Virus record (IMG/VR): IMGVR_UViG_3300007515_000003
Coordinates: 1-64,000 of that record
Source: a virus
DNA: 64,000 nucleotides
Strand: one strand, 5' to 3'
Numbering within the stretch: the first letter of the stretch is position 1; each line of letters opens with the position of its first letter. The notes below the pieces were generated by a model. That model had not been told where the DNA came from. It searched no databases and saw nothing but the letters and a program-made list of their open reading frames with translations. Positions 36,298-48,932 of the stretch are shown piece by piece. Both the position numbers and the translations under genes were made by a program.

Positions 36298-36352
36298 GTA
36301 CTCATGCCCTTAGCATACGAGTATAGTGCAAAACATTAGTTGAATCTTAGCC

Positions 36353-36381
36353 TTGACAAATGGCTCTTTCTGTGGTATCTT
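36353..36381 (+). promoter_or_regulatory. leaderless promoter TTGACA-N17-TATCTT
   Basis: Six bases to the ATG at 36388. Upstream sequence shared with the promoters at 39182 and 40183. Confidence 0.75.
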
Positions 36382-36387
36382 ATAGGT

Positions 36388-36804
36388 ATGAATAACAATA
36401 AGAACATAAACCTAGATGTGTTGAAGATAGTACTGGATGCAACCACTCCAGCCAACCTTGCGAAGATAAATGTTTCGGGTGACTTCAATCTAGTACCAAC
36501 GCCATTGACTCGTGACCAAGCCTGTGCAGCTAAGCGTATGCACGCACGCTGGCAAGCTCACACTACTGGCAACACCTATGTGCTTTATGTTCAGAACAGA
36601 ACTTGCGACCATGCCTTTAGGGTAGTAGGTCACGGCAAGAACCCTTGGCAGGCTGTGCTACGCTACTACAAGGGTCTTGATAACAAGGGCAGTTGGATAT
36701 GGCAATGCACTAAGGTGGTTGCAGTATACTCTTGCGTATGTGACAAGTCCACTCAGGCAGGCGATCTGCTCGCTGGTCAAGCTCAAGACAGAGCTCCTTG
36801 GTAG
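36388..36804 (+). CDS. unknown 138-residue protein
   Basis: Begins MNNNKNINLDVLKIVLDA; the middle has an aromatic, Cys-containing beta-like region (TYVLYVQNRTCDHAFRVVGH). Start fixed by the leaderless promoter; an upstream in-frame extension would read through the promoter. Family not recognised. Confidence 0.75.
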   Translation: MNNNKNINLDVLKIVLDATTPANLAKINVSGDFNLVPTPLTRDQACAAKRMHARWQAHTTGNTYVLYVQNRTCDHAFRVVGHGKNPWQAVLRYYKGLDNKGSWIWQCTKVVAVYSCVCDKSTQAGDLLAGQAQDRAPW

Positions 36805-36805
36805 T

Positions 36806-36854
36806 CAAGGACTTACGCCACCGGCCCCCTCCGGGCGGGCCCCCTATGTCCTTG
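36806..36854. repeat. GC-cored inverted repeat R3
   Basis: Arms CAAGGACTTACG and CCTATGTCCTTG with a 25-base core of C and G runs. The right arm is followed by an arm-like word (CAGCAGGTTACAG). Confidence 0.75.
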
Positions 36855-37126
36855 GTGCTCAGCAGGTTACAGTTTTTTAACGAAAAATATCTCCCTAAGT
36901 ACTTGATGCTCTGTTAGTTACGCATAAAAAAAAGTCGAGATGAGATTTTTTCCGCAATTACATAAAAAAAAGTTAAAAAAAAATGCATTTTCTTCTCGCT
37001 GATAATCAACAACTTAGGACAATAATCTTCTCTTTTGAAAAAAAAGCTCGTCTTTTCGTCAAATTCTGTCATAATGGGAACCATAGACAATCGAGAAAGA
37101 CTTTAACCCAAAAACCAAAAAAAATT
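36855..37126 (+). other. A-rich regulatory region without a gene
   Basis: Contains TTACGCATAAAAAAAAGTCG at 36918, also found at 35240, then oligo-A tracts and the GCTCGT-N18-CATAAT promoter. The whole stretch is a diverged copy of 35161-35399. No coding frame is supported. Confidence 0.6.
37046..37075 (+). promoter_or_regulatory. promoter GCTCGT-N18-CATAAT with a leader
   Basis: Same boxes and spacing as 35370-35399, but here about 45 bases of leader follow, including ACAATCGAGAAAG (37087-37099), a word shared with other leaders. Confidence 0.5.
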
Positions 37127-37360
37127 ATGCACGGCATTACAATACTAATTCACGAATTCAACTCCTTTGTTTCTGTCAAGATTCTAGATGGAGGCTTGTT
37201 TCCACGAGTCCGCACAACTGGACGCCTTGACGGATTGTACAAGATTCTCAAAAATGAGCTTGCCCACTTCAAGGAAATGGGAATCGAAGTTTCCTTCGCT
37301 CGAAAGAACGCAGGAAAGTTTGGCGGTATCAAATGGAAAGACATTGCGAAACTTCGCTAA
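37127..37360 (+). CDS. unknown 77-residue basic protein
   Basis: MHGITILIHEFNSFVSVKIL... with a basic C-terminal half. Start context AAAATTATG. No recognised family. First gene of a three-gene cassette. Confidence 0.7.
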   Translation: MHGITILIHEFNSFVSVKILDGGLFPRVRTTGRLDGLYKILKNELAHFKEMGIEVSFARKNAGKFGGIKWKDIAKLR

Positions 37361-37368
37361 AAAAACCC

Positions 37369-37397
37369 TTGACAAAAACCACTTTTTAGAATAAAAT
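37369..37397 (+). promoter_or_regulatory. promoter TTGACA-N17-TAAAAT
   Basis: Eleven bases to the ATG at 37409, so a leader of about 5 bases is predicted. Confidence 0.7.
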
Positions 37398-37408
37398 AAT
37401 AGAATAAA

Positions 37409-37663
37409 ATGATAGAAATTACATACATCCTCCACAATCTAGATCGAGATGGCAATCGTTTAGACATTAAAAACCAACTCTTGCGAAAAGATATGTTTGA
37501 GAACGAGCAAGCTTGCTTTGATGCTTGGGCTTACTTAAAAGATCGAACAGAAGTTGAGATTCGCTCGACTAGAGAATTGACCCAAGAAGAGGTTGACCTT
37601 AAAGTCGCAACCGCTCGCAGAATTGCCTCCGATTATCGCCCCGGCGTTTATAACGGAGATTAA
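37409..37663 (+). CDS. unknown 84-residue protein
   Basis: MIEITYILHNLDRDGNRLDI... Mixed charge, one helix-rich segment (TQEEVDLKVATARRIA). Own promoter. Unknown function. Confidence 0.7.
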   Translation: MIEITYILHNLDRDGNRLDIKNQLLRKDMFENEQACFDAWAYLKDRTEVEIRSTRELTQEEVDLKVATARRIASDYRPGVYNGD

Positions 37664-37671
37664 ACAAACTA

Positions 37672-37758
37672 ATGACTGATCTAATCATAATGTTGCTCGC
37701 CTTGCTTGTGGTCACCAATCTGTGGTGTTGCTTGGTTTGGCTGATATCGGGTTCCTAA
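37672..37758 (+). CDS. tiny single-span membrane peptide (MTDLIIMLLALLVV...)
   Basis: 28 residues with one hydrophobic helix containing Cys-Cys. Last gene before repeat R4, 8 bases after the upstream stop. Confidence 0.6.
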   Translation: MTDLIIMLLALLVVTNLWCCLVWLISGS

Positions 37759-37770
37759 GCCCCTAATAAC

Positions 37771-37817
37771 CAAAGACTTACGCGCCGGCGGCGTCCCCCC
37801 GTCTCCGTAAGTCCTTG
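37771..37817. repeat. GC-cored inverted repeat R4
   Basis: Arms CAAAGACTTACG and CGTAAGTCCTTG; core CGCCGGCGGCG plus a C-run. It lies 133 bases before the next ATG. Confidence 0.8.
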
Positions 37818-37868
37818 AATGGCAATAGGTTACAGAGTAAAAAAAGTGAAAAAAAGTGAAAAAAAAAC

Positions 37869-37897
37869 TTGACTTTCTCTGCTTTCTGTGCTATTGT
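37869..37897 (+). promoter_or_regulatory. leaderless promoter TTGACT-N17-TATTGT
   Basis: Six bases to the ATG at 37904. Preceded by repeated AAAAAAAGTGA. Confidence 0.75.
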
Positions 37898-37903
37898 ATA
37901 GGT

Positions 37904-38083
37904 ATGATTAAGATTGAAAAAGACGATATCGTTCTCGACCGTTTCGGCGGTTTGTTTGTTGTGCTTGGCACAATCCAAAGCGGAGAGCTTGCAGAAGTTC
38001 GCCGTTGGGGAAGTTCCCAAATCTTTCACCTTGTCGTCGGCGACTTCGGCGACTCTCGTGGGCTTCGTAAAGTCGTGCAATAA
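37904..38083 (+). CDS. small protein related to the product at 39217
   Basis: 59 residues. MIKIEKDDIVLDRFGGLFVV parallels MIKNKDVVVDRRGRIFQVV at 39217: a beta-rich SH3-like layout. Unknown function. Start set by the leaderless promoter. Confidence 0.75.
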   Translation: MIKIEKDDIVLDRFGGLFVVLGTIQSGELAEVRRWGSSQIFHLVVGDFGDSRGLRKVVQ

Positions 38084-38120
38084 GGCACAAACAAAAGTAG
38101 AATAATGCAAAAGAAAAAGC

Positions 38121-38149
38121 TTGCAATTATCGCAAAACTGGTTTAGTAT
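38121..38149 (+). promoter_or_regulatory. leaderless promoter TTGCAA-N17-TAGTAT
   Basis: Six bases to the ATG at 38156. The -35 is weaker than the TTGACA type. Confidence 0.65.
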
Positions 38150-38155
38150 ATAGGT

Positions 38156-38431
38156 ATGATTAAGATAAAAAAAGACTTCTGGACACAGAAAAATGTCCCC
38201 ATGATTCACTTTCGCCAAGCGAAAATCCAAATGACCCTTGCCAATGGCGATAAGCTTGGCACGGTTCAAACTTTGCCGTTCCAAAAGAACGCACCAAGCA
38301 AAGGGCAATGGTTCGCCAAGGTTTCTGATGTTTGGGATGTCGCAGACATTTCTTTCCGTGATCTTGGCGTACAGTCTTGCGTTGCTCCAAAAGGTCACAT
38401 CGCTTGGAATCTCGTAGGAAAGGGAGTTTAA
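38156..38431 (+). CDS. unknown 91-residue protein
   Basis: MIKIKKDFWTQKNVPMIHF..., with WFAKVSDVWDVADISFRDLG near the C-terminus. Its TAA overlaps the next ATG (TAATG). Family not recognised. Confidence 0.75.
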   Translation: MIKIKKDFWTQKNVPMIHFRQAKIQMTLANGDKLGTVQTLPFQKNAPSKGQWFAKVSDVWDVADISFRDLGVQSCVAPKGHIAWNLVGKGV

Positions 38432-38661
38432 TGTTAAAAAGATTCTTTTTTCAAACTCTTTTACGAACTCGCTACTTTGTGGGCTTTTCAAAGGTGAAAT
38501 ACTTTTGGAGCTTAAAATCTGCCGAGGACTTCGCAAGAAATTGCAAAGATCTTGGAAAAACAACTGTCTGGCGTAAAGATCACAAAAGAATGTTTACTCA
38601 CAACAATCTTGTCGATTACTCACTCCACGAGGACGCAAAAAACTTTTCAACCTATCACTAA
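38431..38661 (+). CDS. unknown 76-residue basic protein
   Basis: MLKRFFFQTLLRTRYFVGFS... Basic and aromatic. A Shine-Dalgarno AGGGAG precedes the ATG and the start overlaps the upstream stop. Unknown function. Confidence 0.7.
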   Translation: MLKRFFFQTLLRTRYFVGFSKVKYFWSLKSAEDFARNCKDLGKTTVWRKDHKRMFTHNNLVDYSLHEDAKNFSTYH

Positions 38662-38669
38662 AAAAACGC

Positions 38670-38698
38670 TTGACAAAAACGCAAAAATCTGACAAAAT
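38670..38698 (+). promoter_or_regulatory. leaderless promoter TTGACA-N17-CAAAAT
   Basis: Six bases to the ATG at 38705. Confidence 0.7.
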
Positions 38699-38704
38699 AA
38701 AAGC

Positions 38705-38875
38705 ATGATTAGAATAATTCAAAACCCAAATCTCAAAAACTGGTTTTCTCTCATTAGTGGCGAAACGCTACTTGACCAAATCAAGGGAAAAGCTAACGCA
38801 TTGAAAATCGCTCGCAAGATTGCAAGAGCCGAAGGCAAAATGATTTCCGAAGAGTTTAACGCAAACAAAAAATAG
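38705..38875 (+). CDS. unknown 56-residue protein
   Basis: MIRIIQNPNLKNWFSLISGE..., then a basic helix. Start set by the leaderless promoter. Two bases separate it from the next gene. Confidence 0.65.
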   Translation: MIRIIQNPNLKNWFSLISGETLLDQIKGKANALKIARKIARAEGKMISEEFNANKK

Positions 38876-38877
38876 AA

Positions 38878-39075
38878 ATGTACATTCCACAAACTCCAGC
38901 ACTAATTGATGCAAAAATTGCACAAAAGAAAAAAGCCCTTTCCGAGTGGAAGGAAAAACTGAATAAGTCACGCAAACAGTCGTTTCTTGTAGCTAGAGCC
39001 TTGCAGGTCAAAACGCTAGAAGAAGAACTGCAAACACTGCGAGCGGTTCGAGCGGTACGGCTCACAAGGTGCTAA
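38878..39075 (+). CDS. basic coiled-coil protein
   Basis: 65 residues, Lys/Arg-rich with heptads (LEEELQTLRAVRAVRL). Last gene before repeat R5. Unknown function. Confidence 0.65.
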   Translation: MYIPQTPALIDAKIAQKKKALSEWKEKLNKSRKQSFLVARALQVKTLEEELQTLRAVRAVRLTRC

Positions 39076-39079
39076 TAGT

Positions 39080-39126
39080 CAACGACTTACGCGCCGGCGG
39101 GCCCCCGGCGTTAGCGTAACTCATTG
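39080..39126. repeat. GC-cored inverted repeat R5
   Basis: Arms CAACGACTTACG and CGTAACTCATTG; core CGCCGGCGGGCCCCCGGCG. The core is nearly identical to R6, and the left arm is 137 bases before the ATG at 39217. Confidence 0.85.
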
Positions 39127-39181
39127 AAGACCAAGGAGTTAACGTGAGAGAATCGTGCAAAACATTAGTTGAAAGTTAGCC

Positions 39182-39210
39182 TTGACAAACAGGTGTTTCT
39201 GTGGTATAGT
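39182..39210 (+). promoter_or_regulatory. leaderless promoter TTGACA-N17-TATAGT
   Basis: Six bases to the ATG at 39217. Part of the 137-base repeat-promoter unit. Confidence 0.75.
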
Positions 39211-39216
39211 ATAGGT

Positions 39217-39390
39217 ATGATTAAAAACAAAGATGTAGTAGTAGACCGCAGAGGTCGCATTTTTCAAGTTGTCGATGCAGACTTTAAGACTGACCGACTA
39301 GGCAAACAAATCCTTTGCCGTTTGTACCGTTCGCAAAAGCGTTTCGCTTTCATGCCTTGGCAGGTAAAAAAGCATCCGTTTTTCTCTTGA
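39217..39390 (+). CDS. small basic protein, paralog of 37904 product
   Basis: 57 residues, beta-rich, basic, same opening pattern as the product at 37904. Start set by the promoter. Unknown function. Confidence 0.75.
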   Translation: MIKNKDVVVDRRGRIFQVVDADFKTDRLGKQILCRLYRSQKRFAFMPWQVKKHPFFS

Positions 39391-39409
39391 AAATAATTGA
39401 AAAAAAAAC

Positions 39410-39438
39410 TTGACTTTTCCTTAAAAATAGATTAAATT
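39410..39438 (+). promoter_or_regulatory. leaderless promoter TTGACT-N17-TAAATT
   Basis: Six bases to the ATG at 39445. Confidence 0.7.
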
Positions 39439-39444
39439 GTAGAT

Positions 39445-39744
39445 ATGAAAATTGAAAAAGACCTCTCTCACATCGCCGAAGCTGTCGCTTTGGCTAACGC
39501 CAACGGAAACAAAGTTTCCGACCAGTTCGCTGACTTGCTCGCCGACCTACAAGGTCAAAAGCTTGCCGAAGACTTTACGGTTGAGCATGGAACGCAACAC
39601 GCTTCAGATGATGAAGTGAAAGCCGAGTTCGTTTCTCTCGATGCAGTTGAAAATGACAACGAAGACGACGATTTCGACAATGATGAAAACCTCGTTGACA
39701 TGAGTCAAATCTCTGGCTCGATGCGTGAAATCTTTGGAGAGTAA
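39445..39744 (+). CDS. acidic small protein, copy B
   Basis: 99 residues. Residues 24-72 nearly match copy A at 35406 (FADLLADLQGQKLAEDFTVE conserved), while the acidic tail has diverged. Copies A and B use different promoters. A gene duplication within this arm. Confidence 0.8.
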   Translation: MKIEKDLSHIAEAVALANANGNKVSDQFADLLADLQGQKLAEDFTVEHGTQHASDDEVKAEFVSLDAVENDNEDDDFDNDENLVDMSQISGSMREIFGE

Positions 39745-39751
39745 AAAAATT

Positions 39752-40087
39752 ATGAGAAAAGTCACAGAACAAATCAAGCAAGCCTTTGAGCAAGGCGAAT
39801 CTAAAAAAGTCGGAAACACCGAGACGGATGGAACAAGCGTTTTCTTGCATGGGAATGAAATTGTTCGCCGTGATGTGAGCGGTTTGGTCTTTGCTACGCT
39901 CGCAGGTTGGAACACTCCAACCACGAGAGAAAGAGTCAACGGAATCACAGGAATGGGCTTTCATCAGGTCAACCATCAGGCTTGCCTAAATGGTGAACCG
40001 ATTGACTCATCCGACTGGTTCGTCAAGACTGCTCAAGGTGATTCGCAAGCGTTGCCACCACCGCCTAAGTCACTGACTGTCAGCTAG
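39752..40087 (+). CDS. unknown 111-residue protein
   Basis: MRKVTEQIKQAFEQGESKKV..., with LHGNEIVRRDVSGLVFATLA GWNTPTTRERVNG. The pattern (HGNxI, then WNTPTTRERVN) is seen in small phage proteins of unknown role. Start context AAAAAAATTATG. Last gene before R6. Confidence 0.7.
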   Translation: MRKVTEQIKQAFEQGESKKVGNTETDGTSVFLHGNEIVRRDVSGLVFATLAGWNTPTTRERVNGITGMGFHQVNHQACLNGEPIDSSDWFVKTAQGDSQALPPPPKSLTVS

Positions 40088-40127
40088 TTACGGGCCGGCG
40101 GGCCCCCGGCGTTAGCGTAACTCATTG
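40081..40127. repeat. GC-cored inverted repeat R6
   Basis: Arms CAGCTAGTTACG and CGTAACTCATTG; the core differs from R5 by one base at its start. It overlaps the last codons of the upstream gene. Left arm 137 bases before the ATG at 40218. Confidence 0.85.
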
Positions 40128-40182
40128 AAAACCAAGGAGTTAGCGCGAGAGAATTGTGCAAAACGTTAAGCGAATCTTAGCC

Positions 40183-40211
40183 TTGACAAAAGGGCTTTTC
40201 TGTGGTATTGT
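40183..40211 (+). promoter_or_regulatory. leaderless promoter TTGACA-N17-TATTGT
   Basis: Six bases to the ATG at 40218. Confidence 0.75.
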
Positions 40212-40217
40212 ATAGGT

Positions 40218-40718
40218 ATGATTAAGAGAAAAACTAAAGCTTTCGTTTTTGACTTTGACGACACTCTTGCGTTCACCGATGCAAGAGTTCATGTGCTGAG
40301 TCGGTTCAAGAGTCAAGTGGTCGCAAGCTTGACCCCTAAACAGTTCAATGATGTAAAATTAAAGGAAGGCGAAAGCTTCGACTTCTCAGACTTCGACAGG
40401 GCAAGCTTTATCCGTGACGGCAAACCAAGCAAGCTAATTGACTTGGCAAAAGATGTTTTTGAAGAAGGGCATTCTGTGTTTATCTTAACTGCTCGCAACG
40501 ATTGCGTTTCTTCTGCGATTGCTGAATGGCTTACAGACTTCGGCATTGTTGCCAGAGAAGTCCATTGCGTAGGCGAAAAAGATACAGACATTGCAAAAGC
40601 AAAAAGACAAGTCTTGCTTGCAATCATTGAAAACTTTGACAAGGTTTGGTTTTTCGATGATGATGCTCGAAACATTGAGCTTGCCCAAGAGCTAAACCTT
40701 AAAGCTAAAAAAGTGTAA
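40218..40718 (+). CDS. HAD-family phosphatase
   Basis: 166 residues. HAD motif I FDFDDTL (residues 11-17), motif II/III around ILTAR and the Lys in the KAKRQ helix, and acidic motif IV FFDDDARNI. It would be a small phosphohydrolase, perhaps acting on a nucleotide or on nucleic-acid ends as T4 Pnkp-type phosphatases do, but the substrate is unknown. Confidence 0.8.
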   Translation: MIKRKTKAFVFDFDDTLAFTDARVHVLSRFKSQVVASLTPKQFNDVKLKEGESFDFSDFDRASFIRDGKPSKLIDLAKDVFEEGHSVFILTARNDCVSSAIAEWLTDFGIVAREVHCVGEKDTDIAKAKRQVLLAIIENFDKVWFFDDDARNIELAQELNLKAKKV

Positions 40719-40726
40719 AAATTACC

Positions 40727-40849
40727 ATGAATAAAACAAAACTTGCAAAGATAATGAAAGCCAAAGGCAAAAAGAATGTTTTCGCTAAACTGATAGAAAT
40801 GCAAAAAAAGTTACAGAAAAGGCTTGACAAAAATCAGAAAAAAGACTAG
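40727..40849 (+). CDS. basic 40-residue protein with a promoter inside its 3' end
   Basis: MNKTKLAKIMKAKGKKNVFA..., strongly basic. Its last codons contain TTGACA and most of the next -10 box, so promoter and coding sequence are shared. Unknown function. Confidence 0.55.
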   Translation: MNKTKLAKIMKAKGKKNVFAKLIEMQKKLQKRLDKNQKKD

Positions 40850-40852
40850 TAT
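40824..40852 (+). promoter_or_regulatory. leaderless promoter TTGACA-N17-TAGTAT
   Basis: Six bases to the ATG at 40859. Nested in the 3' end of the upstream gene. Confidence 0.7.
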
Positions 40853-40858
40853 AGAGGC

Positions 40859-41023
40859 ATGATTAAACAAGAAATCGAAAGACTCGTTTCCGTTTTGCAG
40901 GCATTGACCTTGCAAAAGTTGGAAGCAATTAGAAACGGCAAGCAAAGAGAAGCTTTGCAAATCCAATCGGTGCAGGTTGACATCGACAACAAAATCCAAG
41001 ACCTAGAAAGGCAACTTTCTTAA
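40859..41023 (+). CDS. 54-residue coiled-coil protein
   Basis: MIKQEIERLVSVLQALTLQK..., a continuous amphipathic helix. TAATG overlap with the next gene. Unknown function. Confidence 0.65.
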   Translation: MIKQEIERLVSVLQALTLQKLEAIRNGKQREALQIQSVQVDIDNKIQDLERQLS

Positions 41024-41103
41024 TGGAAATTGGAATCATTTTACTCGTTACCTTTTGCCTCGCAGGCTTGAGGGAAGCAATAAGCCCAACACTGAAAAAA
41101 TAA
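41023..41103 (+). CDS. tiny single-span membrane peptide (MEIGIILLVTFCLAG...)
   Basis: 26 residues with one hydrophobic helix. Resembles the peptide at 50030 (MELGIIILIGICFG). Coupled by TAATG upstream and abutting the next ATG. Confidence 0.6.
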   Translation: MEIGIILLVTFCLAGLREAISPTLKK

Positions 41104-41367
41104 ATGAAACACTTTGAAATCTTAAAAGTCGGAGTTTCGCCAGAAAGGCGTTTCCTTCAAAAAACCATGAGCGGAGCAAATTGGACAAATCAGTGGCACG
41201 CTCACAAGTTTCTCAAGCTAGATGAAGCAAAGCAAGAGGCTGACAGTCACGAGAATGTTGTCATAATCTGGGTTGATGAATCAATCCACAGCGGAGCAAA
41301 TTGGGGCGAAGTAAATCCCGATTGCTCGCCAGACTTCGCTCGCCAGAGAATCGTTTCAACTCAATAA
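41104..41367 (+). CDS. unknown 87-residue protein
   Basis: MKHFEILKVGVSPERRFLQK... contains two SGANW repeats (MSGANWTNQWHAHKF and SIHSGANWGE). No recognised family. Confidence 0.7.
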   Translation: MKHFEILKVGVSPERRFLQKTMSGANWTNQWHAHKFLKLDEAKQEADSHENVVIIWVDESIHSGANWGEVNPDCSPDFARQRIVSTQ

Positions 41368-41376
41368 AATAAACTA

Positions 41377-41487
41377 ATGAGAGAATATAGAAATCTAATC
41401 ATCTGCGGAATCTTATACTGCGCAGTCGCCACGCTAATGGTCGCAGGGTTTTACCTTGGTTGCCTTCTCAGCGTCGCAACTAACTGA
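41377..41487 (+). CDS. tiny membrane peptide (MREYRNLIICGILYC...)
   Basis: 36 residues with a long hydrophobic helix containing three Cys. Last gene before repeat R7. Confidence 0.6.
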   Translation: MREYRNLIICGILYCAVATLMVAGFYLGCLLSVATN

Positions 41488-41491
41488 TTGC

Positions 41492-41538
41492 CAAAGAGTT
41501 ACGCTTGGCCGGGCTCCCCCCTAAGTCATAAGTCGTTG
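41492..41538. repeat. GC-cored inverted repeat R7
   Basis: Arms CAAAGAGTTACG and CATAAGTCGTTG with core CTTGGCCGGGCT plus a C-run. Confidence 0.8.
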
Positions 41539-41679
41539 ATACTCATACTGTTATGACCCAGAATGATTCGAGATGAATATTTGACCCTATTTGGCTTCAA
41601 AAATCAAGTAATTTCTCTATTTCTATTTAATTGATTATCAATAGTTTATAACTATTTTTATTCATTTGTAAAAAAGTGT

Positions 41680-41708
41680 TTGACTCAAAATGAGATTTAG
41701 TCTATTAT
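41680..41708 (+). promoter_or_regulatory. promoter TTGACT-N17-TATTAT
   Basis: Ten bases to the ATG at 41719. It would drive the small ORF, the tmRNA-like RNA and the 106-residue gene as one transcript. The 140 bases upstream are AT-rich without a gene. Confidence 0.7.
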
Positions 41709-41718
41709 AGTAGGCATA

Positions 41719-41868
41719 ATGAAAAACGGAATAAGTCTCACCAAAAAGGAACTTCAAGAAATCATCGACCAAAATGTCGGTGACGCAAACGAGGGTTGTG
41801 TTCAGTCTCAACAGATTGTTGTCCACGCCCAATGGCTATTGGATAGGATTGCCAACCAATGGGGATGA
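41719..41868 (+). CDS. 49-residue protein overlapping the tmRNA-like RNA
   Basis: MKNGISLTKKELQEIIDQNV..., plausible helical protein with a promoter correctly placed. Its last codons and TGA are the first 8 bases of the RNA domain (GGGGATGA). Processing of the RNA would cut this mRNA. Confidence 0.55.
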   Translation: MKNGISLTKKELQEIIDQNVGDANEGCVQSQQIVVHAQWLLDRIANQWG

Positions 41869-41933
41869 TTGGATTCGATTTGCACTGCTTCATCGGGGCA
41901 AAGACTGCGGTTCAACTCCGCACATCTCCACCA
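41861..41933 (+). ncRNA. tmRNA tRNA-like-domain minigene (no tag region)
   Basis: 73 nt. Acceptor stem GGGGATG (41861-41867) pairs with CATCTCC (41923-41929) with G3-U70, the alanine identity pair; discriminator A and an encoded CCA follow (41930-41933). The T arm TGCGG-TTCAACT-CCGCA is perfect. The D side has no D-stem but carries GATTGGATTCGA, matching the universal GGATTCGA of tmRNA 5' ends. A 5-bp stem TTTGC/GCAAA closes a 14-nt loop exactly where a tmRNA would have its long pseudoknot and tag insert. It therefore looks like the aminoacylatable half of tmRNA alone. SmpB binding and charging are predictions. A tRNA is less likely: no D-stem, no regular anticodon arm. Confidence 0.7.
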
Positions 41934-41946
41934 ATTTTTAAGAATT

Positions 41947-42267
41947 ATGAGTAAAAATAAAAACAAAAATATTGCACTAATCGACGAGAAATGGGAAGCA
42001 ATTGGACATTCAATGAACATCTCAAACGAGGCTTGCTCAAGGTTATTCAATGAGGTTTTGATTCCGCTTTCTGGAATGCAAGGCAAATTGAAGTTTGCCA
42101 CAGGCAAAAGTGTGGTCGATGAATCCGTTGACTGCATAGAAAACAAGTCAGTTCGCCGTACAGTTGCCGAAGTCAGAGACGGCATTTCAGGACTCCGTGA
42201 GATAGTCAAAGATATATCTCAAAGTCTCAGAGAGCAATCGGAAAAATACATTCGCGCAAATCCTTAA
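41947..42267 (+). CDS. unknown 106-residue helical protein
   Basis: MSKNKNKNIALIDEKWEAIG..., then helical (VAEVRDGISGLREIVKDISQ). Starts 13 bases after the tmRNA-like RNA, context AAGAATTATG. Last plus-strand gene; the convergent arm begins 118 bases on. Confidence 0.7.
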   Translation: MSKNKNKNIALIDEKWEAIGHSMNISNEACSRLFNEVLIPLSGMQGKLKFATGKSVVDESVDCIENKSVRRTVAEVRDGISGLREIVKDISQSLREQSEKYIRANP

Positions 42268-42271
42268 GCAT

Positions 42272-42319
42272 CAGCGACTTACGCTACAAGGGGGGACCCC
42301 GGCCCGTCGTAAGTCATTG
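42272..42319. repeat. GC-cored inverted repeat R8
   Basis: Arms CAGCGACTTACG and CGTAAGTCATTG; G-run/C-run core. Lies at the junction of the two convergent arms. Confidence 0.8.
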
Positions 42320-42353
42320 ACCTACAACGGGTAACAGGCTAACCAATAATAAA

Positions 42354-42391
42354 ACTATTTAGCTATTTAGTATTTACTATTTAGCTATTTA
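42354..42391. repeat. 16-base direct repeat at the convergence point
   Basis: ACTATTTAGCTATTTA occurs at 42354 and 42376 with 22-base periodicity. The second copy includes the stop of the 42385 gene. It might be a protein-binding site or a weak terminator. Confidence 0.5.
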
Positions 42392-42609
42392 AGTTCCTCA
42401 ATTAGCTCGTCTAATCGCTCATAGTCAAGCCCCGAATCATTCCAAGCAACTCTGTCTGGTGTTTCGGTAGACTCAAAGCAGTCTCGCATTTGACAAGCGA
42501 AGTCATGATAATTCTCGCACTCTCTTGCGAAATTGTAAAGACCTTCGTCATTGCCTATCCATAGGGCGACATTCCAAGTTGCGTGATTTTTCCATCCGTT
42601 ATAACTCAT
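42385..42609 (-). CDS. conserved phage protein, NGWKNHATWNVALWI type
   Basis: 74 residues. The opening NGWKNHATWNVALWIGNDEG is a pattern I recognise from many unrelated phages, always of unknown function. Acidic C-terminus. ATGA overlap with the upstream gene. Confidence 0.75.
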   Translation of the reverse strand: MSYNGWKNHATWNVALWIGNDEGLYNFARECENYHDFACQMRDCFESTETPDRVAWNDSGLDYERLDELIEELK

Positions 42610-42731
42610 AATTTTGATATATCGTGTCCGTGTTGTTCCATGTTTCGCAATGCCTCTTGTCTGGTCATGTTAAAACGACTCATAAGATACATTAGAAGCG
42701 TTGCTCCTGTTAATTCTATTTCATTACTCAT
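42606..42731 (-). CDS. unknown 41-residue protein
   Basis: MSNEIELTGATLLMYLMSRF..., overlapped by genes on both sides (ATGA downstream; 8-base overlap upstream), which supports it as a real small gene. Confidence 0.6.
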   Translation of the reverse strand: MSNEIELTGATLLMYLMSRFNMTRQEALRNMEQHGHDISKL

Positions 42732-42924
42732 TTACAAGTCCAATCGTATAAGGAGAGTGTTCTGTCGCTCTGTTCAAATCAGATTCCAAATCTCGAATAA
42801 GTTCAATAACTACTTGAAGCGTTCCTTCAAGACCGATTGACTTTCCGTTCTTCAAAACCTCGTAGTTTTTCACAGGATTGTTTGTTGATTGTCTAATCAT
42901 TCCTTCTATTGTTGAATAGCTCAT
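42724..42924 (-). CDS. unknown 66-residue protein
   Basis: MSYSTIEGMIRQSTNNPVKN... Acidic helix toward the C-terminus. Starts at the stop of the upstream gene. Family not recognised. Confidence 0.65.
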   Translation of the reverse strand: MSYSTIEGMIRQSTNNPVKNYEVLKNGKSIGLEGTLQVVIELIRDLESDLNRATEHSPYTIGLVNE

Positions 42925-43289
42925 TAGTCTGATAAAAGAGATTGGGTGTAATCGTTTCGGAGTTCATTGAGAAGGTCAACCCAAGCAACGCCATTCGTTT
43001 GAGCCTCACGCATTAGGCGAGTAATCGCAACTTCATCTTGCCAACCGAGAACATCATCGAACTTAGCAAGCGGAAGCATCTTGTCGTTGTGGAACATTGC
43101 GACTTCGTAAGTTCCTTGCGATGCGTTGCCATAAAGCCCACCGAATTGCTTTTCTTTGTTCTTCATAGAGACAACGGAAATCTGAAATCCGTTTCCTAAA
43201 TCAAGTCTAGCTTGGATTGCATCTGGATGGTTTGCGTGGTCGTTAAACTCCAAATCGGAGAAGGTTTTCGTCTTTTGTGTTTCAATCAT
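42924..43289 (-). CDS. unknown 121-residue phage protein
   Basis: LDLGNGFQISVVSMKNKEKQ... then GLYGNASQGTYEVAMF. This layout is seen in small phage proteins without assigned role. First gene of a four-gene operon; leaderless promoter. Confidence 0.7.
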   Translation of the reverse strand: MIETQKTKTFSDLEFNDHANHPDAIQARLDLGNGFQISVVSMKNKEKQFGGLYGNASQGTYEVAMFHNDKMLPLAKFDDVLGWQDEVAITRLMREAQTNGVAWVDLLNELRNDYTQSLLSD

Positions 43290-43295
43290 AAATAT

Positions 43296-43324
43296 ATTCT
43301 GACAGATAATAGGGTTTTTGTCAA
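43296..43324 (-). promoter_or_regulatory. leaderless promoter TTGACA-N17-CAGAAT
   Basis: Six bases to the ATG at 43289. Confidence 0.75.
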
Positions 43325-43333
43325 GGCTTTTTT

Positions 43334-43570
43334 TTATAAATCTTCCGTTAGGGCAAATATTCTTCCGTTGTAATCAACTTGGCTGGAAATGTTTGTAAAG
43401 GTTCTCTTTTCTAAATTGGCTCGCAAGCAATCTTCGCTGATATAATACTCTCGCAACCAAGGCGTTTTCTTCTTCTTCTGTTCTTCCGCTTTTCTGTCCA
43501 CCTCTGCAATGACTATCACGCCATCGTTTGAAAGTGAGAGTAAAAGGCTTTTGTCTCGTTTTAATTTCAT
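43334..43570 (-). CDS. unknown 78-residue basic protein
   Basis: MKLKRDKSLLLSLSNDGVIV... Start set by the leaderless promoter. No recognised family. Confidence 0.7.
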   Translation of the reverse strand: MKLKRDKSLLLSLSNDGVIVIAEVDRKAEEQKKKKTPWLREYYISEDCLRANLEKRTFTNISSQVDYNGRIFALTEDL

Positions 43571-43576
43571 CCCTTT

Positions 43577-43605
43577 ATACTAGATTAATTAAGCCTTGAT
43601 GTCAA
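43577..43605 (-). promoter_or_regulatory. leaderless promoter TTGACA-N17-TAGTAT
   Basis: Six bases to the ATG at 43570. Confidence 0.75.
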
Positions 43606-43637
43606 GCTTTTTCTTTCGCTCGCAACATACTGAAGCT

Positions 43638-43684
43638 CAACGACTTACGCTGACGCCGGGGGCCGGCCCAGCCCTAAGTCCTTG
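43638..43684. repeat. GC-cored inverted repeat R9
   Basis: Arms CAACGACTTACG and CCTAAGTCCTTG; core CTGACGCCGGGGGCCGGCC. Confidence 0.8.
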
Positions 43685-43685
43685 A

Positions 43686-43853
43686 CTATCTGCCGTTTAG
43701 GATTCTCAAGAGATGCTCGTAAGCTGGCAAGCCTGAGTTTAACCCATGAGCAACCCATTTTCCCTTTTCTTTACGGTAAAGCAAATCCCATTTGCAAGCG
43801 TAATCATGCACTCGCATTAGACCATTGGGCAAGATTTCAGTTCGGTATCTCAA
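43686..43853 (-). CDS. unknown 55-residue protein, TTG start
   Basis: The TTG overlaps the TGA of the Gp88-like gene (TTGA) and has AGGAAGGG 8 bases upstream. An internal ATG would give 43 residues. Basic, with HDYACKWDLLYRKEKGKW. Last gene before repeat R9. Unknown function. Confidence 0.6.
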   Translation of the reverse strand: MRYRTEILPNGLMRVHDYACKWDLLYRKEKGKWVAHGLNSGLPAYEHLLRILNGR

Positions 43854-44572
43854 GAGTTTATCCCTTCCTGTACGAATCCTGTCTCATCCTTTTTTGCCAT
43901 ACCCTTTTCGATAAGCCCGACAATAACGCCTTGCTTGTCACGGAAACGCAAATCACTTTCATCGCCATTGATAACTTCGTGACCTTTCCAAGTTTTAGGT
44001 AACCTATCACGGAAAACCACGGCGACATTTCCACCCATTTGCAAAACCATATCGCAAAGCGTATCGTTATGCTCTGAGCGAGAAAAAGTCAAATGATAGT
44101 TGCTCGGAAAATCCTTAGCTTGATTGACGAACTTTGCCATGCGTTGAAACGACTTGGTATAATCATAAAATTGCGTTTCGGGAAACTTTTGCATAAGCGT
44201 TTGACCATTTGCATCTTCAATGTTTTCCCATTCCAAATCGCTTGTGAGATTAGGGCGAAAAACCGCAGTCATTTCTTTCTTAACTGCTGACTTAATGCCT
44301 GAAGCAATTTCCTTTGCGAGCTTTTCCATGAACGCAAGCTTTTGTTCAAAGAATAACTTTGTCTTGGCAATGCGAGAGTCTTGGATTTTGTCCATTCGTC
44401 CACGACCAGCAGTATTCAAGCAAGCCATCGTGCAACCTTTGCTTCTCCATTGGCAAGCTTCGTACCCCGAAAGATTTGCTGGAGCAAGATGAATGCCCTT
44501 AGTCATGAAGCCAAAAGCTTCGCCTTTTACGATTTTGGCATTTCCTGCCGTGAGTAGAGTTGTCTTAATCAT
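43850..44572 (-). CDS. Gp88-family phage protein
   Basis: 240 residues. The opening NAKIVKGEAFGFMTKGIHLA, then LSGYEACQWRSKGCTMACLNTAGRGR, matches mycobacteriophage Gp88-type proteins (PF17338). The conserved Cys set suggests a metal or iron-sulfur site; function is not known. Leaderless promoter lies in the 3' end of the upstream small gene. Confidence 0.8.
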   Translation of the reverse strand: MIKTTLLTAGNAKIVKGEAFGFMTKGIHLAPANLSGYEACQWRSKGCTMACLNTAGRGRMDKIQDSRIAKTKLFFEQKLAFMEKLAKEIASGIKSAVKKEMTAVFRPNLTSDLEWENIEDANGQTLMQKFPETQFYDYTKSFQRMAKFVNQAKDFPSNYHLTFSRSEHNDTLCDMVLQMGGNVAVVFRDRLPKTWKGHEVINGDESDLRFRDKQGVIVGLIEKGMAKKDETGFVQEGINS

Positions 44573-44578
44573 GCCTTA

Positions 44579-44607
44579 ATACTATCTTAATTCTGCTTTC
44601 TTGTCAA
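44579..44607 (-). promoter_or_regulatory. leaderless promoter TTGACA-N17-TAGTAT
   Basis: Six bases to the ATG at 44572; nested in the coding end of the 50-residue gene. Confidence 0.7.
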
Positions 44608-44734
44608 CAATTTTCTTTGCTTTTTCAATTCCTTTTTCCATGCCGAACTGAGAAACCAAGCGTTTGAAAGTTTCCCAAGCAATCGTATTCTCGGGAAGCT
44701 TTTTCCATTCTTTCATTCTTTCTTTACTATTCAT
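44582..44734 (-). CDS. unknown 50-residue basic helical protein
   Basis: MNSKERMKEWKKLPENTIAW..., ending in a Lys-rich helix. Own leaderless promoter fixes the ATG. The 3' end doubles as the promoter of the Gp88-like gene. Confidence 0.65.
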   Translation of the reverse strand: MNSKERMKEWKKLPENTIAWETFKRLVSQFGMEKGIEKAKKIVDKKAELR

Positions 44735-44740
44735 GCCTTA

Positions 44741-44769
44741 ATTATGGCAGATTCTAGGGGCAAAGTCAA
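44741..44769 (-). promoter_or_regulatory. leaderless promoter TTGACT-N17-CATAAT
   Basis: Six bases to the ATG at 44734. Confidence 0.75.
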
Positions 44770-44815
44770 GCCTTTTTTTAAAATAAAATCAAAAGAAATC
44801 TAAACCCCTCTAGAC

Positions 44816-44863
44816 CAAGGACTTACGGACCGGCGGGGAGGCCGCCCGGGCCGTAACTCGTTG
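44816..44863. repeat. GC-cored inverted repeat R10
   Basis: Arms CAAGGACTTACG and CGTAACTCGTTG; core GACCGGCGGGGAGGCCG. Confidence 0.8.
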
Positions 44864-44867
44864 ATAC

Positions 44868-44957
44868 TCAGCTACCTACAGCGTGCACATAAACGCACAG
44901 GCTAGTATAAGTAGCAAAGGCAACTGCTATAAATATATATAATAGTCTATTTGTCAT
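44868..44957 (-). CDS. tiny single-span membrane peptide (MTNRLLYIFIAVAF...)
   Basis: 29 residues with one hydrophobic helix. ATG is inside the end of the upstream gene (11-base overlap). Last gene before R10, matching the plus-strand cassettes although on the other strand. Confidence 0.6.
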   Translation of the reverse strand: MTNRLLYIFIAVAFATYTSLCVYVHAVGS

Positions 44958-45132
44958 CACATTGCTTGTTGAGCTTGACAACTTTAAGCACCTTCTTAAA
45001 GGCTTCTTGCACTCCGTCAAGAAACTCCTTGCTTCCCATTTCTGGATAAACATGGTTGATGTCGTTAGGATCGTAGACATTCAAGACATCTAAGATGACC
45101 TCGAAATCTTTTTTGTTTAGTGATGTATACAT
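44947..45132 (-). CDS. unknown 61-residue protein
   Basis: MYTSLNKKDFEVILDVLNVY..., helical, mixed charge. Downstream end overlaps the membrane peptide. No recognised family. Confidence 0.65.
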   Translation of the reverse strand: MYTSLNKKDFEVILDVLNVYDPNDINHVYPEMGSKEFLDGVQEAFKKVLKVVKLNKQCDDK

Positions 45133-45136
45133 AATT

Positions 45137-45253
45137 CTATAATTCTTCTACCCACCAATAGCCTTCGCACTTAGTGAGAATGGTATCAATTCCGTTTTGT
45201 TGCTTCATGTAGACAAATTGCCTCGCATGGTGTTCGTGAATAAACTTATACAT
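45137..45253 (-). CDS. unknown 38-residue protein
   Basis: MYKFIHEHHARQFVYMKQQN..., ATG overlaps the upstream stop base; ends WWVEEL. Supported by coupling on the 5' side. Confidence 0.55.
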   Translation of the reverse strand: MYKFIHEHHARQFVYMKQQNGIDTILTKCEGYWWVEEL

Positions 45254-45594
45254 TAAAAGTCTGCTCCATAGGTTTCTTGCTCTCCAAAGCAACCGTAATC
45301 TTCGTCAGTCCCGAATCCTGCGGAAGTCATGGCAGAATCAAAATCTCCATCCATACTTTCGTCGATATCTCTTTCGTCGTTGATGTGCCATTGCTCAACC
45401 TCTTCACAAGAAATCATCTTGCCGTGCCAATCGTAAACGGCAAATTGGATTCCAAGATTAAGGTATTCGCCAGTTTGATTAGCCTCATCTATCAGGACTT
45501 CTGCTCGCATATAAGCTTGCTCAAGACCTTCACGATTTTTGTTCCAGAAATAGTCAAGCGTTTCATTTACAATTACTTCATATCTTTTTATCAT
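45253..45594 (-). CDS. unknown 113-residue acidic protein
   Basis: MIKRYEVIVNETLDYFWNKN..., with acidic C-terminal third (DERDIDESMDGDFD). Start set by leaderless promoter. First gene of a four-gene cassette that ends at R10. Confidence 0.7.
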   Translation of the reverse strand: MIKRYEVIVNETLDYFWNKNREGLEQAYMRAEVLIDEANQTGEYLNLGIQFAVYDWHGKMISCEEVEQWHINDERDIDESMDGDFDSAMTSAGFGTDEDYGCFGEQETYGADF

Positions 45595-45601
45595 ACCTAT
45601 A

Positions 45602-45630
45602 ATACTATACTAGAATGGATTTCGTGTCAA
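45602..45630 (-). promoter_or_regulatory. leaderless promoter TTGACA-N17-TAGTAT
   Basis: Seven bases to the ATG at 45594. Lies directly downstream of the U-run of the small RNA. Confidence 0.75.
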
Positions 45631-45640
45631 GGGTTTTTTT

Positions 45641-45765
45641 AAAAAAAGTGTCCCGTGCTGTGCCACATGACTGCACCCAGATTTATGAAGGTTGCGAGCC
45701 TTCTGTCTTGAGGGGTTTATGTCTCAAGTCTGACACGGGACTGAAATTGTGTTAAAATAATTATA
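45641..45765 (-). ncRNA. branched small RNA with its own promoter and terminal U-run
   Basis: No coding frame. Closing stem GTCCCGTG (45650-45657, plus-strand coordinates) with CACGGGAC (45734-45741). Inside are hairpins CTTGAG/CTCAAG, GAAGG/CCTTC and GTGC/GCAC, giving a multi-branched fold. On the minus strand the closing stem is followed by AC and seven T, a terminator-like end. It matches no RNA family I recognise. It could be a regulatory RNA, a riboswitch-like sensor or a decoy. Confidence 0.6.
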
Positions 45766-45770
45766 CCTAT

Positions 45771-45799
45771 AAGTATGACAGAATGAGCCGTGAAGTCAA
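45771..45799 (-). promoter_or_regulatory. promoter TTGACT-N17-ATACTT for the small RNA
   Basis: Same architecture as the leaderless promoters, but the position that would be ATG reads ATA, consistent with a non-coding transcript. Confidence 0.65.
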
Positions 45800-45904
45800 G
45801 CTTTTTTTTCATTTTTTATGTCGATGCTTTGCTGTTTTGTAAACACGTTTCTCAAATGTGTCGATGAGATAAACATAAGTTTGGTGTTGCAAGTCCCTAA
45901 TACC

Positions 45905-45951
45905 CAACGACTTACGCTGAAGCGGGGAGCCGGCCCCGTCATAAGTCATTG
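45905..45951. repeat. GC-cored inverted repeat R11
   Basis: Arms CAACGACTTACG and CATAAGTCATTG; core CTGAAGCGGGGAGCCGGCC. Confidence 0.8.
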
Positions 45952-45962
45952 ATAGTCAACGA

Positions 45963-46006
45963 CAAAAAAAACTCCCCTCGATCCTTATATTTGACCGAGG
46001 GAAGTT
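45963..46006 (-). terminator. rho-independent terminator after the DUF932-like gene
   Basis: An 11-bp stem (AACTTCCCTCG with CGAGGGGAGTT, one G-U) followed by eight T on the minus strand. It ends transcription of 46049-46828 before R11. Confidence 0.8.
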
Positions 46007-46048
46007 TCTTATTTAAGAGCTGTATTTGACCCCTTTTCGTTTCAATTT

Positions 46049-46828
46049 CTAGTTGGATTCAACTCCTGCAACAGGGTCAAAAGCATTATGGAAAATCTCA
46101 GAACGCTTAGGCAAGTGCATTACATTGCGTCCTTTGGACACTTCCGTGAACGCATTGTATAGCGAATTAAGATTGCGGTCTTGAAAGACCTTGTGGTCAG
46201 AATCTTTCCATTGCTCCCAAGCTTGAGCTAGGGTGGATTGACCAATTAAGTTGGTCTTGATTCCTGCCTCGTAGACATCGAAGATGAGGTGTTGAGCTTG
46301 CCTATCATTCAAAGGAATATCCCTATAAGCTTCGACTCGCTTATCTTGATGCTCCCACATGGGCAATAAAGCCTTGACAATATCATCCACTCTCTTGAGT
46401 AGCTCTTGCTTTACTTCGCCTATGTGCTTGCGAGTAAAGACGACATCGTTATGAAAAACGAGATTGTCACAAATAAATGGTGCTTCACCTGCACACAATC
46501 CTGCTGCGAAAAGCTTATCGTGCGAGTTACGCATACCGACAACTGTTCCTCTATCCGAACCAACACGATTTGGATGAACAACTTGAAACATTCCGAAATA
46601 ATGGTCGGCTTGCTTACCAAGATTGTGGCATTCATTTACGATTTCAAAACCCGATTCTTCAAGGTTGTTGCGAGTTACATCGACAACAGTTGCGTGAGGA
46701 ATTGGTTTCCAACGATTAGTTTCCTTGGGAGTCGGAACACGACGAACGGTATCCAAATCCACAACGGAACTTTTTGCTCCACAAATGCGGAGGTTCAACT
46801 TAGGAGTTTCTGCTATTGTATCTGTCAT
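46049..46828 (-). CDS. DUF932-type phage/plasmid protein
   Basis: 259 residues from ATG 46828 (context AAAAAATTATG); a longer TTG start would include the leader. The block MFQVVHPNRVGSDRGTVVGM, then AGEAPFICDNLVFHNDVVF, and the C-terminal helices match DUF932 proteins found on phages and plasmids (function unknown). Monocistronic, with a leader and a clear terminator. Confidence 0.75.
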   Translation of the reverse strand: MTDTIAETPKLNLRICGAKSSVVDLDTVRRVPTPKETNRWKPIPHATVVDVTRNNLEESGFEIVNECHNLGKQADHYFGMFQVVHPNRVGSDRGTVVGMRNSHDKLFAAGLCAGEAPFICDNLVFHNDVVFTRKHIGEVKQELLKRVDDIVKALLPMWEHQDKRVEAYRDIPLNDRQAQHLIFDVYEAGIKTNLIGQSTLAQAWEQWKDSDHKVFQDRNLNSLYNAFTEVSKGRNVMHLPKRSEIFHNAFDPVAGVESN

Positions 46829-46868
46829 AATTTTTTGAGTTTCTATTTTTATCAATTGTTAAGCTATA

Positions 46869-46897
46869 AGTATAGGTGAAAATATGTTAAAAGTCAA
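46869..46897 (-). promoter_or_regulatory. promoter TTGACT-N17-TATACT with a leader
   Basis: About 34 bases of leader to the ATG at 46828, starting TTAACAATTGA, a variant of the shared leader word. Confidence 0.7.
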
Positions 46898-46900
46898 GCA

Positions 46901-47143
46901 TTAATTTTGCTCAAATGGCTTTTTTTCTTGCCCATTGAATCCAGTCATGTTCTCGTAGCATTGAGCCTTTTGGGCAATTTGCTGAAGGGTAATTCCAACC
47001 ATGCCAATAGTCTCACTTTCCTCATCACTTAGCTCACCTTCTACTGGCTTAATGCAAATCTCCCATAGCACATCCATGCACATCTTCATGATGTTCTCTG
47101 CGTTCAAGTTTTCGTCCGAGGCTTCGTTATTCAATATATTCAT
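46901..47143 (-). CDS. unknown 80-residue acidic protein
   Basis: MNILNNEASDENLNAENIMK..., helical, two Cys. Leadered promoter upstream. No recognised family. Confidence 0.65.
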   Translation of the reverse strand: MNILNNEASDENLNAENIMKMCMDVLWEICIKPVEGELSDEESETIGMVGITLQQIAQKAQCYENMTGFNGQEKKPFEQN

Positions 47144-47179
47144 TTTTTCTTCAATCCTTTCTCAATTATCAATACAAGT

Positions 47180-47208
47180 ATTCTAGAGGAAAACTAGGGT
47201 AATTGCAA
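47180..47208 (-). promoter_or_regulatory. promoter TTGCAA-N17-TAGAAT with a leader
   Basis: About 30 bases of leader to the ATG at 47143, containing GATAATTGAGAAAGGA. Confidence 0.6.
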
Positions 47209-47260
47209 GCATAAAATCACTAAAACTAACATTTTTTTTAATGCTTATGTTGCTCTAGGT

Positions 47261-47306
47261 CAATAACTTACGACGGGCCCGGGGGCCCGCCAGCTAAAGT
47301 GAATTG
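47261..47306. repeat. GC-cored inverted repeat R12 (right arm degenerate)
   Basis: Left arm CAATAACTTACG, perfect inner palindrome-like core CGGGCCCGGGGGCCCG, weak right arm. Confidence 0.65.
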
Positions 47307-47384
47307 ATTGAGAGCCAAGTCGCCACACTTGGTGAAGCTTTCAAGGGTTAACCTACTAGGCGTAGTACTGCCTCTCAAAATCAA
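47304..47384. other. branched inverted-repeat element next to R12
   Basis: Outer stem TTGATTGAGAG (47304-47314) with CTCTC-AA-AATCAA (47372-47384), inner hairpins CCAAG/CTTGG and TACT-AGGCG-TAGTA-type pairing. It follows the last gene of a minus operon, so it may be a 3' UTR structure or a separate RNA. No clear promoter or U-run was found. Confidence 0.45.
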
Positions 47385-47395
47385 TAGATAGATAA

Positions 47396-47560
47396 TTAAG
47401 CGAAGATCCGCTTCTCTAGTTTATACAGCTGCTCAAGTAGATTGTCGTGCTCCTTTTTCTTCAAAGCCCAATCCTGACAATATGCTCCTGACTCCTCAGC
47501 CAATGCCAGCTCATAACCGAGCTGGCGAATCTTGGCTAAGAGAGTATAGTGCCGTGCCAT
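47396..47560 (-). CDS. unknown 54-residue coiled-coil protein
   Basis: MARHYTLLAKIRQLGYELAL..., a single charged helix. Three bases after the upstream stop. More GC-rich in its codons than neighbours. Confidence 0.65.
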   Translation of the reverse strand: MARHYTLLAKIRQLGYELALAEESGAYCQDWALKKKEHDNLLEQLYKLEKRIFA

Positions 47561-47562
47561 AA

Positions 47563-47775
47563 TTAGCTTACGACTGTTACCAACCTATCGTAGCGAAACC
47601 TACGATAACCTTCACGGTTGTGGCAATATGCCGTGAATCCGACAATGTTCTGACCTTCATTGGCATTGCCAAATTGGTCTTCTTGTACTGGCTTATCGAC
47701 AGTATACAGTTCCGTTCTTCCGTCGGAAGTCTTGTATACGACTTGCCATCGTGTTGCGTTCTTGTTATTCTTCAT
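47563..47775 (-). CDS. unknown 70-residue protein
   Basis: MKNNKNATRWQVVYKTSDGR..., beta-rich. ATG 47775 has GGAAAAG in front and overlaps the upstream gene by 11 bases; an alternative ATG at 47793 has no ribosome site. Confidence 0.65.
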   Translation of the reverse strand: MKNNKNATRWQVVYKTSDGRTELYTVDKPVQEDQFGNANEGQNIVGFTAYCHNREGYRRFRYDRLVTVVS

Positions 47776-48034
47776 TTTCTTTTCCAGTTTCATATTCGTT
47801 TATATCTTTTTTAGATTCTTGTTCTTTGGTTTCGTAAAGTTCTAATGATTGCTTGAGAGTTGCTTGGGCTTCTTCCAAAGTGTCAAATGGAATACAAATC
47901 AATTCTTGCTCCAAATTATATGGGCAATACTCTTGCTTCTCAGCAAAATATAAATCCCATGTTCCAGTATCGTCATCGTATTCTGGGCGATTAAGTGGTG
48001 GAAGTTCACAGTATTCTTGAATATAATTAAGCAT
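47765..48034 (-). CDS. unknown 89-residue acidic protein
   Basis: MLNYIQEYCELPPLNRPEYD..., acidic, with a helical C-terminus. Overlaps the genes on both sides by about 10 bases. Confidence 0.7.
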   Translation of the reverse strand: MLNYIQEYCELPPLNRPEYDDDTGTWDLYFAEKQEYCPYNLEQELICIPFDTLEEAQATLKQSLELYETKEQESKKDINEYETGKENEE

Positions 48035-48206
48035 TGCGATTAAACTCTTGAGCCTTTCTGACTTTTTGCGTCACCATTACATTTGGGTCGTACAAGGATT
48101 CAACGAGAGGTTTGTTTCCCGTGTGAGAATACTTCTTGCACATATCGTGAAGTTGTTTGTGTTTTACTGGGTCTGAAACGCCCTTTTGTTTTGCTTCCTT
48201 ACTCAT
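48027..48206 (-). CDS. unknown 59-residue basic protein
   Basis: MSKEAKQKGVSDPVKHKQLH..., basic. TAATG overlap with the upstream stop and an 8-base overlap downstream support it. Confidence 0.65.
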   Translation of the reverse strand: MSKEAKQKGVSDPVKHKQLHDMCKKYSHTGNKPLVESLYDPNVMVTQKVRKAQEFNRNA

Positions 48207-48427: not shown

Positions 48428-48433
48428 GCTATA

Positions 48434-48462: not shown

Positions 48463-48470
48463 GGGTTAAA

Positions 48471-48931: not shown

Positions 48932-48932
48932 C

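Follow-up and report, generated by a model that had tools for sequence, protein, structure and literature searches.

A stand-alone tRNA-like domain of tmRNA in a phage that also encodes a complete tmRNA

What RNA is encoded at positions 41861-41933 of this phage DNA, and what might it do? The window analysed here is a stretch of 64,000 nts from a record of 98,823 bases. An earlier note, made from the sequence alone, read these 73 nts as a stand-alone tRNA-like domain (TLD) of a tmRNA, and proposed a covariance-model search of the locus. The search agrees with that reading. On the plus strand, the locus matches the Rfam model RF00023 with 56.5 bits, above the gathering cut-off of 47, and the E-value of 1.7e-19 rules out chance. 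The alignment spans the first to the last model position and skips about 310 internal positions. The features of the locus and of its immediate neighbourhood are:

41680-41708, plus strand: putative sigma-70-like promoter TTGACT-17-TATTAT, by match to the consensus
41719-41868, plus strand: ORF of 49 aa, with its TGA stop (41866-41868) within the 5' strand of the TLD
41861-41933, plus strand: TLD-only tmRNA, 73 nts including the encoded CCA, matching RF00023 model positions 1-374
41861-41867, plus strand: acceptor stem 5' strand GGGGATG, G3 at 41863; pairs 5-7 covary in 27 sequences
41871-41878, plus strand: tmRNA-type D-side GGATTCGA without a D stem, from the sequence and the RF00023 alignment
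41879-41902, plus strand: connector helix H2, TTTGC / 14-nt loop / GCAAA, a 5-bp stem that covaries in the family
41903-41905, plus strand: GAC linker from H2 to the T stem (GAC or CAC in most family members)
41906-41922, plus strand: perfect T arm TGCGG-TTCAACT-CCGCA, from the sequence and the family parse
41923-41933, plus strand: acceptor stem 3' strand CATCTCC (U70 at 41927), A73 (41930) and CCA (41931-41933)
41947-42267, plus strand: ORF of 106 aa starting 13 nts past the CCA, without a Pfam match

All the elements described in the earlier note are present: the 7-bp acceptor with G3-U70, the discriminator A, the CCA, the perfect T arm, the D-side, and the 5-bp stem with its 14-nt loop. 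In the acceptor stem (GGGGATG/CATCTCC), G3 (41863) faces T70 (41927), and together with A41930 the locus thus has the identity elements G3-U70 and A73 of alanyl-tRNA synthetase (AlaRS). An ATT linker, read from the sequence, joins the acceptor 5' strand to the D-side. H2 stands in place of the pseudoknots and the tag frame; only 24 nts separate the D-side from the GAC linker, so there is neither a tag reading frame nor a pseudoknot. We rejected two other identities. A tRNA-Ala does not fit because the D stem and the anticodon arm are absent and ARAGORN calls no tRNA in the window (it calls no tmRNA there either, and misses the TLD). A complete trans-translating tmRNA does not fit because there is no tag frame ending in a stop. 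For the isolated strand, ViennaRNA gives a lowest-energy fold of -23.2 kcal/mol versus -17.8 kcal/mol for the TLD fold; the control, a crystal-type construct made from the full tmRNA of the same phage, also misses the TLD fold, so isolated-strand folding carries little weight here. The RNA at 41861-41933 is a phage-encoded stand-alone TLD of tmRNA.

The same architecture is found, by pattern scans of IMG/VR and BLAST against isolate phages, in about 36 further IMG/VR contigs, in six isolate phages (Jojan60, BRock, pSt2308, LuckySocke, GiJojo and Alone3), and in one actinomycete MAG contig. We parsed 27 distinct sequences, nearly all of them from phage records of several unrelated kinds. G3-U70, A73 and a full T arm are kept in 27/27. 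In every column of the acceptor stem, the T stem and the first five H2 pairs, 25-27 of the 27 sequences form standard pairs, counts that are somewhat inflated because the parse demanded at least 6 acceptor and at least 4 T-stem pairs and took the best H2 register. The shuffled expectation in the variable columns is about 10-21 pairs out of 27, and no or almost no shuffle reaches the observed value. The search patterns left free acceptor pairs 5-7, T pairs 49-51 and all of H2, as well as U70 for 16 of the 27 members. The covariation count excludes one sequence with a slightly different T stem (L087); L152 and L173 were likewise not used. In a MAFFT alignment of the family, the acceptor strand is one or two columns out of register. 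Since all 27 sequences keep G3-U70 and A73 and three helices covary strongly, the stand-alone TLDs are, on this comparative evidence, a functional RNA family. The family has two forms: a short one with a plain H2 hairpin, as at 41861-41933, and a longer one with a second hairpin that is often AAA-CCGC-AY-GCGG-A.

Chitinophaga and several more bacterial genomes also gave hits (L175, L176, L180 and others), which were rejected because they have no matching 5' acceptor strand, and L042 and L060 were rejected as chance or ordinary tRNA matches. The isolate copies examined, in Streptomyces and Stenotrophomonas phages, bear no tmRNA annotation. In Stenotrophomonas phage Jojan60 (L148, 880-1073), the unannotated TLD-only tmRNA overlaps an annotated hypothetical CDS and lies beside a cluster of tRNAs whose annotation is on the other strand. 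In the related Streptomyces phages BRock, pSt2308, LuckySocke and Alone3 (L182, L183, L184, L190), an unannotated TLD sits inside a tRNA cluster. In Tunturiibacter phage Tunturi_4 (L189, 218-632), a tmRNA-type 3' end comes directly after a gene annotated as a peptide release factor with an RF-1 domain, a candidate ribosome-rescue factor.

The 98,823-base record carries rIIA, rIIB, an ATP-dependent ligase, a sigma-factor-like protein and a clamp loader, as well as tRNAs. By this gene content, the phage looks T4-like. For the ligase, the best of the isolate matches listed is to Caulobacter phage Cr30, at 38% identity. Within the window, positions 6805-26574 of the minus strand form a single ORF of 6589 aa, an unusual length for a phage. 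Outside the window, at record positions 88065-88440 on the minus strand, the phage has a complete one-piece tmRNA (128.4 bits, tag ANNIVRFEDFTACGEELALAA). The absence of a tag frame and pseudoknots described in the earlier note therefore holds for the locus and not for the phage. The TLD is not close in sequence to this full tmRNA. A second record, IMGVR_UViG_3300009104_001827 (211,117 bases), matches it at 99.6% identity across the 6.3 kb around the TLD that were compared and has both the full tmRNA and the TLD. These are the two TLD copies known in the source lineage, and because the TLD is identical in both, selection at 41861-41933 is not measurable within the lineage.

To sample the lineage more widely, we use 14 relative records found through the ligase. 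Five of them have a full-length tmRNA above the cut-off; none of the 14 has a TLD-only match above it. A 205-kb relative with a 69% identical ligase has the full tmRNA without the TLD, and the homologue of the 49-aa ORF in another relative (L162; 53% identity over 40 aa) runs on without a TLD. The full tmRNA is therefore common to several relatives, and the TLD has the look of a recent acquisition. No full-length tmRNA turned up in the remaining TLD-bearing records that were searched, most of which are fragments. No SmpB gene was found in the 98,823-base record, in the 211,117-base record, or in 20 other TLD-bearing records, so that the most likely partner of the TLD is the SmpB of the host.

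The putative promoter at 41680 is one of a set just upstream of an ATG. In window positions 36300-49900, many sigma-70-like promoters of the form TTGAC-N-TAnnnT end about 6-12 nts before an ATG, and the 98,823-base record has 38 such promoter-ATG matches compared with about 15 in block shuffles. Promoters abutting ATGs suggest near-leaderless early genes. The early-promoter region also includes a 147-bp repeat with 87% identity between its copies (39078-39224 and 40079-40225). A Pfam search assigns no family to either ORF flanking the TLD, and the neighbourhood DNA has only short matches, probably due to chance, to isolate phages. As the stop of the 49-aa ORF sits within the TLD, a cut at 41861 during RNA processing would leave its message as a nonstop mRNA. 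The TLDs of L170, L168 and L169 are likewise overlapped by an upstream ORF. The arrangement is inconsistent across the family, and we rejected a stop within the TLD as a family-wide device.

By analogy with molecules of the same kind, the 41861-41933 RNA is probably an alanine-charged competitive decoy that damps host trans-translation during infection. Transcription would start from the promoter at 41680, and host tRNA-processing enzymes would trim the transcript to the 73-nt RNA, which host AlaRS would charge with alanine by way of G3-U70 and A73. Host SmpB would bind the D-side and the elbow of the TLD, as predicted from the retained D-side and GAC linker. The RNA would then compete with full tmRNA for host SmpB and EF-Tu, and trans-translation would be reduced. 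The inhibitory activity in this scheme is borrowed from the literature: according to PMC4131195, a molecule similar to the TLD of mycobacteriophage DS6A strongly inhibits E. coli tmRNA, chargeable or not, with SmpB titration as a possible cause. The whole-model RF00023 match and the 27 TLDs with G3-U70, A73 and covarying acceptor, T and H2 helices speak for the decoy. Against it, a phage that encodes a full tmRNA would be inhibiting its own tmRNA, and strict conservation of G3-U70 exceeds the needs of a simple SmpB sponge, since uncharged versions are reported to inhibit too. The main puzzle for the decoy is that the full tmRNA is in the same genome, shares the host SmpB, and has a similar promoter. 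A timing model with an early TLD and a late tmRNA was dropped because both genes lie behind sigma-70-like promoters. It is conceivable, if unlikely, that the two RNAs form a control in which the full tmRNA and an alanine-chargeable TLD vie for host SmpB and thereby set the level of tagging, or that the Ala-TLD is itself active and adds tag-free alanine.

The earlier note proposed either a decoy or modulator of trans-translation or an alanine adaptor; the former is the better supported, and the adaptor is a weaker rival. As an active tag-less rescue adaptor, the Ala-TLD with SmpB and EF-Tu would enter stalled ribosomes, take the nascent chain and expel the broken mRNA, leaving a complex that other rescue factors would clear, perhaps once several alanines had been added in turn, and phage proteins would be spared the degradation tag. 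The G3-U70, A73 and full T arm of all 27 members argue that charging matters, an alanyl-TLD with SmpB and EF-Tu does bind the stalled ribosome (PMC3968760), and a role in dealing with incomplete mRNAs has been proposed for the tag-less tmRNAs of mitochondria (PMC11915505). However, the activity on record for a TLD-only RNA is tmRNA inhibition (PMC4131195, PMC11915505), a ribosome given no resume codon should stay stuck, and TLD-only rescue is without report in the literature searched, all of which makes an adaptor improbable. The absence of the TLD from the homologous ORF in L162 and from the 205-kb relative, together with the two known copies being identical, would also fit a recently acquired, non-functional fragment, left when a tmRNA gene lost its interior, and not under selection in the source phage. 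Such a fragment seems to us a doubtful explanation, as all helices, identity bases and loops are intact, unrelated phages retain the same minimal form under covariation, and the sequence does not closely resemble that of the phage's own full tmRNA.

Two further explanations concern the position of the locus. The TLD could be a tRNA-like processing signal in an operon, where RNase P and 3' trimming would cut between the 49-aa and the 106-aa ORFs and remove the stop of the first. The stop inside the TLD, the start of the next ORF 13 nts after the CCA, and the similar upstream overlaps at three other TLDs are in line with such a signal, but the arrangement varies across the family, and a plain tRNA would do equally well, which leaves the conserved SmpB-type D-side and G3-U70 unexplained; we give this explanation a low probability. 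The 3' ends of tmRNA genes are common phage attachment sites, and in mycobacteriophage Shandong1 (L188) a tmRNA-like 3' end adjoins the integrase gene. The earlier note named a degenerate integration site as an outcome that would refute its reading. An attachment site, or a prophage remnant in a host tmRNA gene, is strongly disfavoured and very improbable here: the TLD has its 5' part as well as its 3' part, joined to each other, no tyrosine integrase (PF00589) was found in the 98.8-kb or the 211-kb record, rIIA, rIIB, the ligase and the clamp loader point to a T4-like phage, and DS6A itself integrates at a tRNA-Lys and not at a tmRNA (PMC10865867).

DS6A is the sole phage TLD-only tmRNA named in the literature searched; here we report 27 distinct TLDs, nearly all from phage records. 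With dozens of such mini-RNAs and their strong covariation, the TLD-only RNA is no longer an isolated oddity but a strategy to which phages recur, directed against ribosome rescue or around it. The universal G3-U70 raises the question of why charging is conserved when a decoy could do without it, which is naturally asked in a phage that has a full tmRNA as well as a TLD-only one.

The earlier note knew of no described system of this kind. DS6A and the inhibition in E. coli are precedents: PMC4131195, citing Mao et al. 2009, has DS6A entered as a "TLD only" tmRNA, and PMC11915505 restates both the entry and the inhibition of tmRNA. By its description, DS6A (tmRNA Website entry 11587) is like the 41861-41933 RNA in being a phage tmRNA cut to little beyond the tRNA-like domain. 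DS6A is entered as TLD only, whereas the phage studied here also has a full tmRNA, looks T4-like, and has no tyrosine integrase that we could find in its two records. The SmpB-TLD crystal construct, made of the 5' 25 nts and the 3' 34 nts with a UUCG loop between them (PMC3985003), is nearly the same molecule as the TLD, and the alanyl-TLD-SmpB-EF-Tu complex has been crystallised on a stalled ribosome (PMC3968760). Standard one-piece phage tmRNAs, such as those of Bacillus phage G and mycobacteriophage Bxz1, share G3-U70, A73, GGATTCGA and the T arm; the 41861-41933 RNA is without their tag frame and pseudoknots, and the standard tmRNA of this phage is a separate gene. A 2025 database of 97,179 tmRNA sequences has 9 standard-form ones without a tag frame. 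Tag-less plastid and mitochondrial tmRNAs are on record (PMC11915505), and the CDS-less plastid tmRNAs of Mallomonadaceae (about 65 bp) and the tag-less mitochondrial tmRNAs are likewise reduced to the tRNA-like part, but these are organellar and reductive, whereas the TLD here is a phage gene beside a full copy in the same genome. Permuted two-piece tmRNAs have the same TLD parts and a short acceptor piece, but their genes place the 3' piece first and include a coding piece, whereas 41861-41933 runs in 5'-to-3' order with no coding piece. By their sequence order, Stenotrophomonas phage BUCTxx99 (L186) and cyanophage S-CRM01 (L187) have apparent permuted two-piece tmRNAs that are unannotated. 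A limited literature search found no report of a TLD-only RNA and a full phage tmRNA in one genome. The TLD-only phage tmRNA is itself already known, in DS6A; its co-residence with a full phage tmRNA goes beyond that precedent.
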